A DNA stretch of 24,330 bases from a virus: IMG/VR virus record IMGVR_UViG_3300032334_000223, positions 1-24,330 of that record; one strand, 5' to 3'. Positions 4,090-22,801 of this stretch are shown here, piece after piece. A model generated the notes under the pieces. That model made no database searches and had not been told where the DNA came from. It saw only the letters and a program-made list of their open reading frames with translations. The translations under genes and the position numbers were made by a program. Numbering within the stretch: the first letter of the stretch is position 1; each line of letters begins with the position of its first letter.

Positions 4090-4566
4090 TTATGATTTCT
4101 TAAATCCTAATGCTTCCATTTCGTCTTGAATTTCCGCATTAATTGCTTTAACATACCTATTGATTAATCCATTATTACCAAGTAAAGCGGCATCAACTGC
4201 TCTCTTTAAATCTGGGTCATTGTTTGCATCTTTAGCAAATGGTCTTGGTACACCATATCCACTTTTAGTTCCATTACCCCATTCTACCCACTTACCATAA
4301 GGTGCTTGAGGAGGCGCAAAGTTAAGTGATATAGTAACATTTGTTAGTTCTTCTTTAGTTCCTAATTTAGTAGAACGCATTGTAGCCATATTAGCTGCAG
4401 TGTTATAAGAACCTATTGCTTTATATAATCTACCTGTTTTCCAAATTGGTTTAACAGGTTTTGAAGGATTTCTACCAGGATATCCTTGCAACATCTTCTG
4501 CTGTGCTGTTTTGCGATATGCATCAGCAATTGCTTTAACACCAGGAAATGCGAATACTCCAGCCAT
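4090..4566 (-). CDS. HK97 gp10-like tail-completion / head-tail joining protein
   Basis: A 158-residue basic protein with the layout of HK97 gp10-type neck proteins. It has an N-terminal helix (GVKAIADAYRKTAQQKML), a 'KTGRLYKAIGS' segment near residues 43-53, and the diagnostic turn YGKWVEWGNGTKSGYGVPRP near residues 90-109. The last part corresponds to the family's 'Y..yvE.GT...ARPF' motif, and a C-terminal helix follows. These proteins help close the head-tail interface before the tail joins. The start codon overlaps the upstream stop as TAATG, so the two genes are probably translationally coupled. The order portal, connector, putative tail terminator, gp10-like is consistent with a siphovirus head-tail module. 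Confidence 0.68.
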   Translation of the reverse strand: MAGVFAFPGVKAIADAYRKTAQQKMLQGYPGRNPSKPVKPIWKTGRLYKAIGSYNTAANMATMRSTKLGTKEELTNVTISLNFAPPQAPYGKWVEWGNGTKSGYGVPRPFAKDANNDPDLKRAVDAALLGNNGLINRYVKAINAEIQDEMEALGFKKS

Positions 4567-5081
4567 TATGGATAAAGATTAAATAAACATCTTGGTCTAT
4601 CGTTATGAGCTATCAAATCAAATGAACAAACCCAACCGGCTAATCCATTTGGAAAATCTTCTCTAAATGCTACACAATTTATATTTGAATTAATATCAAA
4701 AGATTGTACAGCGTATTCTGTATAAGATAGTAAATCGTTTATTATTGCTAAAGTGTTAGCATGTATATCAACCATATCATCAGTACCATAGAAAGGTACA
4801 ACTTGTTCATTATATACTCCGGTTGACTCGTTATTCTTTAACTTAAGCTTGTCAGCAACTGTAAGTTGGCAAGAATATACAGTTTGTGAACCCTCAAACT
4901 TAGCTTCAGTTATTAATATATTACCTAATGGATATGGAGGAAATTCTAAATCATCTAATTGAGACATATCACCTGTTGATACTTGCGCAATAGAAGGATG
5001 ATTGCTCATTATTGTTTTAAAATAATCTAATGCGTTATAGTATAACGAATAGTTAGTTGCCTGATTGTTTACTACAGCCAT
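4566..5081 (-). CDS. Putative tail-terminator / neck protein (171 aa)
   Basis: A 171-residue acidic protein with no signal peptide. Recognisable segments are LDYFKTIMSNHPSIAQVSTG near the N-terminus, then FYGTDDMVDIHANTLAIIND followed by LL, and VAFREDFPNGLAGWVCSFDL near the C-terminus. The organisation (N-terminal helix, a strand with PP-Y/P, a long helix before the last sheet) fits tail-terminator or neck proteins. In Bacteroidetes phages this kind of protein lies between the connector and the gp10-like gene, as here. The call is positional and therefore moderate. It overlaps the next gene by one base (TAATG) and lies four bases after the connector gene (TAATATTATG). Confidence 0.5.
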   Translation of the reverse strand: MAVVNNQATNYSLYYNALDYFKTIMSNHPSIAQVSTGDMSQLDDLEFPPYPLGNILITEAKFEGSQTVYSCQLTVADKLKLKNNESTGVYNEQVVPFYGTDDMVDIHANTLAIINDLLSYTEYAVQSFDINSNINCVAFREDFPNGLAGWVCSFDLIAHNDRPRCLFNLYP

Positions 5082-9720: not shown

Positions 9721-12471
9721 TTATACTAAAATAGGTATAATTGAGAAGCTTCCAGAATCAGTAAATGTATGATACCAATAGCTTCCACTTTGTACAGCAG
9801 CTCCACCTGTTCCTAATTGTACATCTGATTTATATCTTATTTTAACAACACCATTTTTACCATTTACATATGCAGGTTCTGCAGTACCACCTTGTCCACC
9901 ACGTCCATATGTTCCTGTTGCAATACCATTTGGTAAACTGTAGTTATATCCTTGTCCATTAAGACCAGAACCACCACCACCAGCTGCATATGAGAATCCA
10001 TCAACCCAATAAGCACCATCATACTCGGCACTACCACCACCACCAAGAACACCAGCTGCATTGTATCCTTGTCCAGGAGTTCCTAAACCACCATTACCAC
10101 CACCAGAGCCACCATTACTGCCAATGAAATTAATATGTACACAGTTACCAGTATCAGAACCACCGCCTCCACCACCTAATGCTACTAATCCGTAGAAAGA
10201 TGAGTCTGTACCATTACCACCAATATAACCATTTCCTGCTCCACCTATACCAACGGTAATTGGATAACTGATTGATGCTGATAATATAATTGAACCTGAT
10301 AGTAAACCACCGGCACCACCACCCGTTGAACGAGAGTTATAACATTGTGGATTCCACCAGCTACTACCAGCACCACCGCCACCAACAATTAAGAACTCTA
10401 CAGTTGGCATTTTATATTCAACAACACTAGCAGTTATATGATAAGATGCAGTATTAGTTTGAGCTACAAAAGAAGCTGTTAAAGTACTCAATGCTCCAGC
10501 AGGTTTGCTTGAGCTTATCCACAAATACTTAGAATAGTTTATTTCAGGTATATCTAAATTTAATTTACCAATATACCAAGAAGAACTATCACTAGAGAAG
10601 AATGGAGTAAAGCTTGAACTTATACTTGCTGTTTGATTAAATGCGTATAAGTTTGTATATGATGAAGTTAATGGAGATGCGCATGATTGAGTAACCATTG
10701 TTACATTAGCATCTTTTCTAATATTCAAAGAAGAGCTGCCAGGTAAATCAGGCCCAGAACCAGATACACTCCAAAATATATTTGAATTAGATTGGTTACC
10801 TTTATTATTAATAATACTAGCAGTAATATTATAGCTATTTACATTTGTTTGCGATTCAAATGAAGCACTTATATAAGCTTGTGTTGTATTAGGATTAAAG
10901 AAAATAGATGATGTATATATTCCAGCTTCAGGTATTGATATTGACATCGTTACTGAACCTGTTGTGTTATTTATATTTGAAACAATAGATGCTGTTTGAT
11001 TAAATGCGTAATTGTTTAGATAAGAACCTGAGTTACTACCAGTTGTATTAGCTACACTAACCATTTGAACATTTACATCCTTTACAATTCTAAATGAAGA
11101 AGATACACCATTAATATTAGTACTATTACCAATTAAATCTTGCGTAGTTGATGTTGAGCCAGCTAGCCAATTAATAGGAGTATTTGATATATTTCCTTTA
11201 TTAAAAATTACACTTGCTGTAATATTATAAGGATTTTCATTTCTAGTATCAAAAGAAGCTGTAATAATATTAACACCAGCTGATGTTGCACTAAATAATA
11301 TAGATGATGTACTAATACCAGCTTCAGGTATATCCAAACTCATAGTTACAGAGCCTGTTGCGTTTGCTTGAATACTAGCTGTTAATGAAGATGTAAAATT
11401 AAATGCATAATCATTTAAAAATCCACCAAATCTACTTCCAGTTATTTCTTGATAATTTACTATTGAAACATTCTTATCCTTAACTAAATTAAATGAAGAT
11501 GTATATCCATTTATAGTTACAACATTACTTAAAGGAGATATGTTTGTTGTTGACCAGTTTATAGGGCCATTATTTATATTTCCTTTGTTATAGTTTATAG
11601 AGCTTGAAAAATAATGTATAGTATTATTACTAGCCACAAATGATGCACTACCAATAGCAGTTACAACATTAGGATTAAAAAAATATAATTTTTTATTAAT
11701 TCCTTCTTGCGGGCAATCAAATGACATTGTTGTTGAACCTGTCACATTGTTAATAGAAGCTGTATATGATGCAGTTACACTAAAACTATATTCATTGTAA
11801 AATGATGATGATTGTGCACTTCCACTAACTTCTTTAATATATGATAAGCTTGTAAATCTTTCAGATACATTATTAAATGATGTATTTTTAACTAAATTAA
11901 ATGAAGCGCTTGTTTCACCATTTATAGATGTGCTAACATTTCCAAATGCTGATGTTTTTTGAGCATTCCAGTTAATTAATGGATTGTATATATTTCCTTT
12001 TATATGAGATATACCAATGTTTAAATTATATTGTTGGTTGCCTAAAGGTGAAAAAGAAGATGAAATTTTACTTCCACTTAAATTAAAATTGTTTTGAGTT
12101 GCATTTTGAATTGATGATGTAGATTGATTAAATCCTAAATTACCACCAACAACAATAGCCATTATATTTGAACCAGTTAAAGGCCACACACCACTTCCAG
12201 TTAATGCAATTTTAACAGGTATACCTAATGCTGAACCTGAAGTTAAAGACCCAGTTTCATACCATCCATTAGAAGAACTTCCTGATATAAAAAGAGTTGT
12301 TGCAGAATATGGAGTGTATTCAATACTACCAGTACCAAAAACTAATGGCGGTATTTGAGTTGGGTTATCAGCAACATAATTGCTTAATCTAAAAGCCCAA
12401 TCCAATTTACCCTTAAGAAAGTTTCTAGTCTTTTGTAAAGGTTCAATCCAGTTATAATTGTAATTTAACAT
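9721..12471 (-). CDS. Repeat-containing fibre protein with C-terminal Gly-rich adhesin-like domain (916 aa)
   Basis: A 916-residue protein with three zones. Residues 1-40 are a non-repetitive N-terminus (WIEPLQKTRNFLKGKLDWAF) that may attach it to the virion. Residues 190 to about 689 hold four related repeats of about 122-136 residues. Each begins near SFNLVK (190, 326), SFRIVK (459) or SLNIRK (581) and contains a 'TGS.TMS...PEAGI' strand and a 'YNITASV..NKGN....INW' block. Residues 690-880 are Gly-rich: VEFLIVGGGGAG, then GGGAGGLLSG, YPITVGIGGAGNG and further Gly runs. That opening matches glycine-rich domains in phage adhesins. T-even gp38-type adhesins use similar Gly runs to pack a polyglycine-II sandwich, so receptor binding is plausible. 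The C-terminus (SGSYWYHTFTDSGSFSI) is a non-repetitive beta tip. Confidence 0.68.
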   Translation of the reverse strand: MLNYNYNWIEPLQKTRNFLKGKLDWAFRLSNYVADNPTQIPPLVFGTGSIEYTPYSATTLFISGSSSNGWYETGSLTSGSALGIPVKIALTGSGVWPLTGSNIMAIVVGGNLGFNQSTSSIQNATQNNFNLSGSKISSSFSPLGNQQYNLNIGISHIKGNIYNPLINWNAQKTSAFGNVSTSINGETSASFNLVKNTSFNNVSERFTSLSYIKEVSGSAQSSSFYNEYSFSVTASYTASINNVTGSTTMSFDCPQEGINKKLYFFNPNVVTAIGSASFVASNNTIHYFSSSINYNKGNINNGPINWSTTNISPLSNVVTINGYTSSFNLVKDKNVSIVNYQEITGSRFGGFLNDYAFNFTSSLTASIQANATGSVTMSLDIPEAGISTSSILFSATSAGVNIITASFDTRNENPYNITASVIFNKGNISNTPINWLAGSTSTTQDLIGNSTNINGVSSSFRIVKDVNVQMVSVANTTGSNSGSYLNNYAFNQTASIVSNINNTTGSVTMSISIPEAGIYTSSIFFNPNTTQAYISASFESQTNVNSYNITASIINNKGNQSNSNIFWSVSGSGPDLPGSSSLNIRKDANVTMVTQSCASPLTSSYTNLYAFNQTASISSSFTPFFSSDSSSWYIGKLNLDIPEINYSKYLWISSSKPAGALSTLTASFVAQTNTASYHITASVVEYKMPTVEFLIVGGGGAGSSWWNPQCYNSRSTGGGAGGLLSGSIILSASISYPITVGIGGAGNGYIGGNGTDSSFYGLVALGGGGGGSDTGNCVHINFIGSNGGSGGGNGGLGTPGQGYNAAGVLGGGGSAEYDGAYWVDGFSYAAGGGGSGLNGQGYNYSLPNGIATGTYGRGGQGGTAEPAYVNGKNGVVKIRYKSDVQLGTGGAAVQSGSYWYHTFTDSGSFSIIPILV
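10405..11904 (-). repeat. Four protein repeats of about 130 residues within the 916-residue fibre
   Basis: Repeats start near residues 190, 326, 459 and 581 (spacings 136, 133 and 122). Each shares the opening S-[FL]-x-[LI]-x-K, a 'YAF/YSF' strand, 'TASI', 'TGS.TMS', 'P.[AE]GI' and the 'INW' closing block. An extra closing block at residues 148-168 precedes the first full repeat. DNA identity between copies is visibly lower than protein similarity, so the copies are old rather than recent duplications. Confidence 0.75.
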
Positions 12472-19898: not shown

Positions 19899-20165
19899 CT
19901 ATCCAATCTTTTTCATAGCTTCCTTATGCATCAGTTCCTCTAATTCATTCCTATCTGCCTGATATGCTAAATACATTAGACATTTCTCTAATGGCTGTTC
20001 GGTTATCTCATCTACTTTGAGGATATTGTTCCCTGCCAATTGGATAAGCGATGAATAAGATTTCCATTTTCTTCCAAAATTGATTTGATGTTGTGTGGAA
20101 TTGCTTTCTCCGTTATCAAAGAGCTCAGGGTAGAATTCAGCAAGTCTTTTAGTAAATTGTTGAAA
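19899..20165 (-). CDS. Shifted-frame C-terminal extension of the tail-chaperone-like protein
   Basis: An 88-codon open frame in the -1 frame of the gene at 20012-20665, entered at the T run, with no good start codon of its own. From the run it reads FQQFTKRLAEFYPELFDNGE, then NFGRKWKSYSSLIQLAGNNI, LKVDEITEQPLEKCLMYLAY and QADRNELEELMHKEAMKKIG before TAG. It looks like real protein: Trp, Tyr, charged helices, few rare residues. It runs 38 codons past the stop of the unshifted frame into otherwise empty sequence. In Bacteroidetes phage relatives the 'FGAVFFF' segment is, as I recall, followed by this kind of 'W..Y.SI..LA....K.DEIT..PL.KCL..L.Y..D..ELE' ending. The fused product would be about 255 residues. 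Confidence 0.7.
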   Translation of the reverse strand, partial: FQQFTKRLAEFYPELFDNGESNSTQHQINFGRKWKSYSSLIQLAGNNILKVDEITEQPLEKCLMYLAYQADRNELEELMHKEAMKKIG

Positions 20166-20665
20166 AAAAAAACTGCTCCAAAATGTACATCCATTGGTAC
20201 ATCCATAAACAGGTCTCCGTTTATATTAGCTTTATATGGCTCTATATCGTAGAGTGTTTTACTCTTATGTGTTACAGGTCTATAAAGAATTGACATTACT
20301 TCTGCCCAATTCTCATCTATCCCTACTGATTGATACTTTGATACGTCCACATAAGCACCATAGCTCATCTTAGATAAATCAGGTTCAAATCCATATTCCT
20401 TTCCATCTATTGTAATAAACTTTTGTAATGGATAGTCCAGCTTTTGTACGAATGAGAATAAATCATCTCTTACCTTTGTGTATGTATCAATATCTAACGA
20501 TTGTAAGTATTGTACTGGGAAGTGGCATAGGTGATGAAACATACATGCTATTAGGGCTTCAGGCTCATCCTTATACGCTTCCATATCTTTTCTGAATGCT
20601 AAGTAATCTTTAAGGGATACTGCACTCCAGTCTTTAGGTACTTCTATTTCTATTGTTTGTTTCAT
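20012..20665 (-). CDS. Tail-assembly-chaperone-like protein, unshifted frame (217 aa)
   Basis: A 217-residue protein if read without a shift. Residues 1-167 look conserved: IEIEVPKDWSAVSLKDYLAF at 5-24, KFITIDGKEYGFEPDLSKMS at 82-101, GAYVDVSKYQSVGID, EVMSILYRPVT at 122-132, and DVPMDVHFGAVFFF at 155-168. The 'PDLSKM..G.Y.DL..Y', 'I..LYRP' and 'MDV..GA..FF' series marks a Bacteroidetes phage family that I take to be tail-assembly-chaperone-like. The last 49 codons after the T10 run look less protein-like than the competing -1 frame. The gene follows the FkbM gene at a TAATATG junction. The function is inferred from family resemblance and the frameshift. Its place far from the tape measure is unusual. 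Confidence 0.62.
   Translation of the reverse strand: MKQTIEIEVPKDWSAVSLKDYLAFRKDMEAYKDEPEALIACMFHHLCHFPVQYLQSLDIDTYTKVRDDLFSFVQKLDYPLQKFITIDGKEYGFEPDLSKMSYGAYVDVSKYQSVGIDENWAEVMSILYRPVTHKSKTLYDIEPYKANINGDLFMDVPMDVHFGAVFFFNNLLKDLLNSTLSSLITEKAIPHNIKSILEENGNLIHRLSNWQGTISSK
20163..20172 (-). other. T10 tract: candidate -1 frameshift site
   Basis: Ten T in a row on the minus strand, in the context GGAGCAG-T10-CAACAA. In the unshifted frame it is read GTT TTT TTT TTC. Slipping back one base within the run gives TTT CAA CAA and opens the long -1 frame. Homopolymer runs like this allow slippage by ribosome or polymerase. They are also the commonest place for a sequencing indel: one extra T (T11) would produce the same fused protein without any recoding. 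Confidence 0.7.
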
Positions 20666-20666
20666 A

Positions 20667-21335
20667 TTATCTTCTTTTAAATAGCTTTACATAGTGTGAA
20701 TTAATACCATCACCGTCCGAATAAACCTCATCATGCGTTGTAGCAATCCAATCCATTAACTCTACTCCTTTATCTCCAGCATAGAATAAGAAGTTATGGA
20801 ATTCACCTGTAATGTATTTAATCTTGCTTAAATCCTTTTTATATAAGAAATCAAACTCTGCTCCTTCTATATCAATCTTTAATAGTCCAACTTCATTGTA
20901 TGGAGCTAATAGGGTTTCCAATGATATTGTTTCCACTTCTTCATACTCCTCACTATTCCATCCATGTCCATTATCAGATGTAAAGCCTGTAATACCATAC
21001 GAGCCTGTTTCAGTATCATTATCATTAACCATATACTTTCTTAATTGTACATGCGTATTATCTTTTGAGTAAAGTGCTTTATGCAATACACTATGCTGAT
21101 GATGTGATTTATATTCCTCTACATTGTAAGATGAAGCATCAATAGCTAAGATGTTGTCAAATCTCCACTTAAATGCTTCAGTAAAGCCACCAACATTACA
21201 GCCGGCATCTATTACCAATTCATTTCTTTCTAAATCCTCCATTAAGTGTATAGGATATTCTCTACTACATTCATCAGTTATTCTTTGAAACCAATTATCA
21301 GGTTGGTTAGCACATACTAGTTTATCTACTTTCAT
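20667..21335 (-). CDS. FkbM-type SAM-dependent methyltransferase
   Basis: A 222-residue class I methyltransferase. Motif I is VIDAGCNVGGFTEAF (41-55). An acidic residue that would bind the SAM ribose is in AIDAS (64-68). VETISLETLL (134-143) and LLKIDIEGAEFDFL (151-164) are the signature segments of the FkbM family ('v..isLd.ll', 'lKiDvEG.E...L'). GEFH (177-180) closes the fold. FkbM enzymes methylate sugar hydroxyls or similar groups on natural products, polysaccharides and S-layer or fibre glycans. In a phage structural region it may methylate a fibre glycan or host surface sugar, but the substrate cannot be read from sequence. Both junctions with its neighbours are TAATATG. Confidence 0.93.
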   Translation of the reverse strand: MKVDKLVCANQPDNWFQRITDECSREYPIHLMEDLERNELVIDAGCNVGGFTEAFKWRFDNILAIDASSYNVEEYKSHHQHSVLHKALYSKDNTHVQLRKYMVNDNDTETGSYGITGFTSDNGHGWNSEEYEEVETISLETLLAPYNEVGLLKIDIEGAEFDFLYKKDLSKIKYITGEFHNFLFYAGDKGVELMDWIATTHDEVYSDGDGINSHYVKLFKRR

Positions 21336-21640: not shown

Positions 21641-22801
21641 TTATCGTACTTTAATTATATATTTTCCAGCTGCTGTTGCTTTATTACTCAATCTCATCAT
21701 ACATGCATATCGTGCCGCATCAATAAGGTGATTGTTAAAATCAATAGGCTTATCCAATTGCTTACCAAATCTATCAGTGCTCCACTCATACGAATAGAAC
21801 TCATTGATTAGATTCTGACATGTCTTAGGTATGTTTATCTTATAGTTGTTCATTACCTGAATGCCAAAGTTAATACTATCCTTTCCTTTGATTACAGGCT
21901 TTATATTCCATCCTAAACGATAGAGCTCATCTATTAGTCTTGGTTCTGCACTATCAGCCCATATCTCCTCTCTATCCTTTACTATACCCCTTAACATCTT
22001 ATCTATATCCGATGTCACCATTCCTTTCTCATAGCAATGCTCAATCAAATGTATTTCACCATCATACTTCCATACACTAACTAAAGCAGTAGGGTCTGAT
22101 GAATAACCAAAGTCCAAACCAAATGCTACGAACTCTGCATGTTCAGGCAACCATTCAGTTGTATTAAATGTAAATACAGCCTTCTCATTACCTGTGTATT
22201 CACCCAAACCATATACCTTCCATGCTTTCAGATTAGTATGCTGTAATTCTTCAATTGCTTTAACAACACTTCTTTCCAAAAATGAATTGTTCTTATATGT
22301 TGTAAAGTAACGAGTACAATCCTGCATTTGTCTAATCCAGTGGTAAGGTGATATGGTTGGGTTGTAACTTAATACTATTGGGCCTGTTGTACGAATTTGT
22401 AGCTGGAAGTATGATTCTTCATCTATCTCATTTGCTTCCTCTAACCATAGTATAGTACTCTTTAATCCTCTTAATTTATCTGCATCATCCGTTGATATAA
22501 ATGATATTGTGCTATCCGTATAGAATGAATATATCCTATCAGTTATATTCCAATCATGTTCATTCCAAACTCCCAAGCTCTGCATTATATCTTTAAAGTC
22601 TTTCATAACAGTTCGCTTGAGAGATGGAATTGTTTTACGGACAATGGTAATAGATTCTTTATTGGATAACGCCTTTACTATACACCATTGAAGTAAAGCA
22701 TAAGTCTTACCACTACGAGTACCGCCAATATGATGTGTCACACGTGTTGGGCTTTCTTCCTGATATTGATAACTAATCGTTGTATTAATCTCTAGGTTCA
22801 T
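21641..22801 (-). CDS. terL: Terminase large subunit
   Basis: The DNA-packaging motor ATPase/nuclease. Residues 26-33 (GGTRSGKT) are the Walker A loop. ILWLEEANEI (117-126) is Walker B with its catalytic Glu. SYNPTISP (145-152) fits the coupling motif. The C-terminal nuclease has its metal-binding acidic residues in FGLDFGYSSDPTAL (Asp 230), EIWADSAEP (Asp 283) and NHLIDAARYA (Asp 361), the order of the RNase-H-like domain. At 386 residues it is slightly shorter than the usual 400-500 but keeps all key motifs. The start overlaps the small-subunit gene by 17 bases, so the two are probably made together. It cuts the concatemer and drives DNA through the portal. Confidence 0.97.
   Translation of the reverse strand: MNLEINTTISYQYQEESPTRVTHHIGGTRSGKTYALLQWCIVKALSNKESITIVRKTIPSLKRTVMKDFKDIMQSLGVWNEHDWNITDRIYSFYTDSTISFISTDDADKLRGLKSTILWLEEANEIDEESYFQLQIRTTGPIVLSYNPTISPYHWIRQMQDCTRYFTTYKNNSFLERSVVKAIEELQHTNLKAWKVYGLGEYTGNEKAVFTFNTTEWLPEHAEFVAFGLDFGYSSDPTALVSVWKYDGEIHLIEHCYEKGMVTSDIDKMLRGIVKDREEIWADSAEPRLIDELYRLGWNIKPVIKGKDSINFGIQVMNNYKINIPKTCQNLINEFYSYEWSTDRFGKQLDKPIDFNNHLIDAARYACMMRLSNKATAAGKYIIKVR

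Follow-up and report, generated by a model that had tools for sequence, protein, structure and literature searches.

A phage gene family with a conserved T9-T10 run appears to make two proteins by -1 recoding

A phage gene divided between two reading frames

The DNA analysed here, which we call the window, is an IMG/VR virus record of 24,330 nt. On its minus strand, a gene downstream of those for the terminase large subunit and a methyltransferase is divided between two frames at a run of ten T residues (Table 1). A -1 step within this run would give a product of 255 aa, ending at position 19899, 38 codons beyond the zero-frame stop. An earlier note on this DNA had placed the run and given both product lengths and the 38-codon overrun, and a re-reading of the sequence found its coordinates and lengths exact. 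The T10 run is the only run of at least nine in the window. Conservation of the -1 frame starts exactly at the run, and within the extension W36, Y39, P60, L61 and D73 are invariant (34 sequences).

Table 1. Features of the recoded gene and its neighbours in the window
Feature	Position	Strand	Basis or remark
Zero-frame ORF, 217 aa (N-terminal domain of ~167 aa plus 49-residue zero-frame tail)	20012..20665	minus	AlphaFold2 model; kept in 134 unique relatives
T10 run, putative slip site; zero-frame reading GTT TTT TTT TTC	20163..20172	minus	T9 or T10 here in every relative
-1-frame extension, ~88 aa past the slip	19899..20171	minus	Invariant residues; no start codon near the run
Putative dual-coding overlap past the slip, both frames conserved	20012..20162	minus	Third-position divergence
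FkbM-type methyltransferase gene, directly upstream	20667..21335	minus	PF05050, E = 6e-12
Terminase large subunit	21641..22801	minus	PF04466/PF17288
Small Cys-rich paralogue, 82 aa	19389..19637	minus	
Small Cys-rich paralogue, 71 aa	19641..19856	minus	
Collagen-like protein, 1355 aa	15317..19384	minus	GTSG/GTNG repeats

The neighbourhood has some features of its own. The methyltransferase gene sits between the terminase and the recoded gene, and no homologue of it was found in the gene maps of the relatives G001, G004, G005 and G006. The two small Cys-rich paralogues have a common C-L-C ... C-C ... Q-G-I-G pattern and gave no family match in Pfam and PHROG searches. In G004, G005 and G006, too, this pair adjoins a fibre gene of the collagen-like type; the collagen-like protein of the window can be aligned only in part across relatives.

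The T run and the -1 relation are kept across the family

Relatives were collected in three scans. In the first, viral contigs were searched with the fused protein, giving 51 loci; the second, a profile search, found at least 524 relatives in the 600 candidate stretches that it yielded, and 80 loci were retained. The slip site lay outside the search patterns of both. Seven further loci were interrupted by contig ends and were left out of the 119 complete loci, which comprise 91 unique ones. In 91 of 91, the C-terminal part is encoded in the -1 frame relative to the N-terminal part, and the junction carries T10 in 58 and T9 in 33. The third scan was centred on the cultured phage P12024S and reached distant relatives, most of which share 23-57% identity with it, with T9 throughout except for one T10; one of its six patterns includes the junction peptide, which introduces a mild selection bias. 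The pooled set holds 134 unique sequences, which form 43 clusters at 75% identity; the shortest run has 9 T and the longest 10. None of these 134 relatives has a single-frame arrangement.

Several observations bear on whether the run is a genuine part of the gene. Two loci from other metagenomes that represent nearly the same phage (L002 and L003) have an identical T10. The cultured Nonlabens (Persicivirga) phages P12024S and P12024L encode a direct homologue as gp38 and gp39 (phrog_32199 and neighbours), directly after the terminase, with T9 in the same place and the same -1 relation; they differ in that the gene is annotated as two hypothetical proteins, the recoding having been overlooked, and in a shorter zero-frame product of 175 aa. 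Elsewhere on the same strand of the loci, runs of at least nine T are rare (4 in 853 kb). Two scans found no prophage homologues in bacterial genomes. Because the run is kept in all 134 distinct relatives, we read the -1 recoding site as a built-in switch of this gene in a Bacteroidota virus family, rather than as a sequencing error.

The earlier note had offered either recoding or a homopolymer indel, and had proposed comparing homologues for a conserved slippery run and for an ending encoded in one frame. The run was found in every unique relative, as the first of these readings predicts, and the indel reading falls with the out-of-frame layout and the retention of the run in homologues that include cultured isolates. 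An ending in one frame is absent from the close relatives and occurs in distant phrog_25418 homologues, described below.

Both C-terminal endings appear to be under selection

Divergence at the three codon positions follows the frame in use. Upstream of the run it is highest at zero-frame third positions (0.21), and beyond the zero-frame stop at -1-frame third positions (0.24). In the overlap, third-position divergence is suppressed in both frames, to 0.087 in the -1 frame and 0.062 in the zero frame. The zero-frame tails are also long, averaging ~47 codons where synonymous recoding of the -1 frame predicts 16, and have a common motif, 'P.NIKSILE.SG'. These comparisons indicate that both products, and both endings, are selected. 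The earlier description of the last 49 zero-frame residues as foreign to the rest of the protein does not hold, as the tails are long and motif-bearing and their substitutions are suppressed.

In the P12024S-like branch (L138-L197), the zero-frame tail is mostly 54-83 codons and covers nearly all of an 82-91-codon -1 extension, such that up to ~250 nt are read in two frames. In almost every member of this branch, the third frame meets a stop two codons after the run.

Homopolymers are error-prone, and the record of phage 6H seems to bear an indel in a distant homologue (191 aa versus 293 aa in phage 2A), but a sequencing or assembly error that hides one continuous frame was rejected here and has a negligible probability, given the same relation in 134 distinct sequences from many metagenomes and two cultured phages and an overlap selected in both frames.

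Distant homologues encode the fusion in a single frame

The profile of the fused protein matches the single-frame proteins of phrog_25418 over nearly its whole length (hhalign, 97.5% with E = 6e-12 over columns 5-236 of 257), crossing the junction; with smaller alignments the same comparison is weaker (56.8%, E = 1e-4). The phrog_25418 proteins are 270-301 aa long and come from cultured Flavobacterium, Cellulophaga and Bacteroides phages, namely the Duneviridae (Flavobacterium phages 2A and laban, Cellulophaga phage Ingeline) and Bacteroides phage BT-TP2, where they too belong to a virion gene module. They differ from the family described here in having one continuous frame, with neither T run nor recoding. 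In addition, a BFVD protein of 258 aa matches both halves, which were modelled separately. Since a full-length homologue occurs in one frame in cultured phages, the fusion is taken to be a real protein. The distant single-frame homologues apparently need one form only, which speaks against a chaperone role, and they would allow phages that have the recoded form to be compared directly with phages that lack it.

In the 6H record, the homologue (L198, 10047-10927) is annotated as gp10, whereas the near-identical sister phage 2A has a single ORF. The truncation of gp10 is probably due to indel errors in the 6H record.

The C-terminal part could instead be a separate gene with its own internal start. 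This is how P12024S is annotated, with gp39 beginning at an internal ATG, and short proteins resembling the C-terminal part are present in BFVD. However, in 35 of the 43 clusters the -1 frame lacks an ATG up to 30 codons past the run, and in the window it lacks ATG, GTG and TTG between the upstream stop and a point 30 codons beyond the run. In addition, -1-frame conservation begins right at the run, the single-frame homologues cross the junction, and a separate gene would not explain why there is a T run at all. Based upon the start-codon scan, we rejected an internal start for the second frame, and we regard this arrangement as very improbable.

Conserved run length points to probable RNA polymerase slippage

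Entry into the -1 frame could occur during transcription or during translation, and the form of the run bears on both. The run is found in three codon phases and in five arrangements around a central TTT TTT, namely (2,2), (3,0), (2,1), (1,2) and (3,1). The T's 5' and 3' of this centre compensate for one another, keeping the total constant at 9-10. Totals outside 9-10 occur in none of the 43 clusters, where independence of the two sides would predict 14.3; since this permutation ignores relatedness, the result is suggestive and is not to be read as a probability. On the tree, the arrangement has changed independently only ~6 times. Thus length, rather than codon phase, is what has been conserved, and a homopolymer of about nine or more is kept at the frame junction in 134 of 134 sequences, both of which are features by which transcriptional slippage is recognised.

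Such a run is well suited to transcriptional realignment. Poly(T) is the preferred slippage substrate of E. coli RNA polymerase, with a minimum of 7 T (PMC6260861), T9 or A9 runs give efficient slippage in vivo (PMC5009743), and slippage in known genes reaches 15-55% (PMC4256274). A genome-wide survey treated Tn with n>8 as indicative of transcriptional realignment (PMC3711429). In Shigella mxiE and spa13, Thermus dnaX and Citrobacter tssM, as here, a homopolymer of ~9 sets the site, structure is dispensable and two products result (PMC5009743, PMC4256274); those are bacterial genes, whereas here slippage is inferred from sequence for a phage gene.

The main competitor is programmed -1 ribosomal frameshifting on a U_UUU_UUN heptamer, of the lambda G/GT type, in which the extra T's would aid tandem slippage. 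The phage tail-chaperone precedents are ribosomal (PMC5009743), and a pair of products of this kind is characteristic of them. An in-frame T_TTT_TTT is present within the run in all 134 sequences, but this is uninformative because any run of at least nine T contains one. Moreover, such a heptamer needs only 7 T (6 with TTC), yet the length is fixed at 9-10 with compensation across phases, and no member of the family has replaced the run with another type of slippery heptamer. A downstream stimulatory RNA structure, common but not obligatory at ribosomal -1 sites, was not found in 49 representatives (mean z 0.01 for 60 nt and -0.02 for 100 nt), nor was any Rfam match. We therefore consider the ribosomal route, which the earlier note had implied, the less likely of the two. 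RNA polymerase slippage on T9-T10 is favoured over it because the length of a homopolymer, and not a phased heptamer, is conserved, and it is the probable recoding route.

A possible virion assembly factor encoded near the terminase

In all relatives mapped, the recoded gene lies directly after the terminase gene or within two genes of it. Probable tape measure genes were located in G001 (10049-12301) and in P12024S (gp49, PHROG tape-measure match E = 2e-4); the window ends before its own. Whereas lambda G/GT adjoins the tape measure gene, directly upstream of it, the tape measure gene lies ~6.4 kb downstream of the recoded gene in P12024S and is non-adjacent in G001. The earlier note was thus right to call the place unusual, with the tape measure elsewhere and the position after the terminase common to every relative mapped.

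Searches of Pfam, PHROG and NCBIfam gave no chaperone match above threshold, and NCBIfam no match of any kind. A Pfam hit to PF10109 had E = 0.23, below the cut-off. The 217-aa form was modelled by AlphaFold2 with a mean pLDDT of 82.8, and neither a fold search with this model nor a sequence search found a PDB counterpart; the -1 part modelled alone gave a weak model (pLDDT 69). Of 40 viral neighbours in BFVD with E < 1e-3, one (E = 7e-4, TM 0.34) bears the name tail assembly chaperone, which was assigned automatically. The description of the gene as tail-chaperone-like is therefore weakly favoured by sub-threshold Pfam and PHROG hits and by this one structural neighbour, and is not borne out by any match above threshold.

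In its architecture, the gene does resemble lambda G/GT. It is likewise a probable phage assembly gene that would yield two products by -1 recoding near the 3' end, with a common N-terminal domain and a minority form carrying a C-terminal domain from the -1 frame. Lambda G/GT differs in being ribosomal, and it has no convincing sequence or fold match to the gene here, which is also set apart by a dual-coding overlap of ~140-250 nt. By this analogy, a G/GT-like assembly chaperone is our best single guess and is plausible, at close to an even chance.

The recoding could also be real and the role a different one, for example that of a head-tail or packaging-linked assembly factor; this concerns function only and fits either mechanism. 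The constant place next to the terminase and the lack of a recognised chaperone profile speak for such a role, which we take as a serious, if tentative, possibility. Against it, the distant homologue in Ingeline has the adaptor gene on one side and the tape measure gene on the other, one structural neighbour bears the chaperone name, and a search upstream of the tape measure gene in P12024S and G001 gave no other recoded candidate for a chaperone. In P12024S, gp47 and gp48 stand in a -1 relation before the tape measure gene, but they were rejected as a second candidate, being an ordinary stop-start overlap with no slippery run.

A model for two products from one gene

Comparison of the relatives shows a gene that would make two proteins by programmed -1 recoding at its T9-T10 run. 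Our best explanation, to which we assign a probability of roughly 0.6, is that both proteins are functional, that the mechanism is transcriptional slippage and that the role is in virion assembly. The 217-aa form with the zero-frame tail would be the common product. RNA polymerase would realign on the T run, giving some transcripts with one extra U (or two fewer), and ordinary translation of these would enter the -1 frame. The resulting 255-aa form would be less abundant, its tail replaced by a conserved helical domain of ~88 residues. Judged by architecture and gene context, the pair could act as a virion assembly factor resembling lambda G/GT, with a common N-terminal domain and, in the minority form, an extra partner-binding domain.

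Programmed ribosomal frameshifting has its textbook case in phage tail chaperones. Neither the two-product layout nor either recoding route is new; the novelty here lies in the gene family, in a T9-T10 run conserved in different codon phases, in the long dual-coding overlap and in a corrected annotation of P12024S gp38/gp39. A literature search, largely confined to papers available without subscription, found no phage tail chaperone for which transcriptional slippage had been reported. It is a more doubtful proposition that a widespread Bacteroidota phage lineage makes a G/GT-like chaperone pair by RNA polymerase, not ribosomal, slippage on a maintained T9-T10, with both C-termini selected over 140-250 nt of dual coding. 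If true, the use of slippage for the same layout would suggest that selection acts on the ratio of the products and not on the route, and the family would offer a natural series of T9 and T10 sites for slippage tests in Bacteroidota. Because gene callers split or truncate the gene, as in P12024S gp38/gp39, a conserved assembly protein may be hidden as hypothetical ORFs.

A second run of this kind was noted in another gene. The window gene at 4566-5081 (171 aa) has a homologue in the relative G006 (L061, 1551-2444, minus strand) that extends to 298 aa, with a second T10 after ~176 codons of the ORF, at the place that corresponds to the end of the window protein. A slip there would give a short form like that of the window, and this T10 run is possibly a second slippage site.
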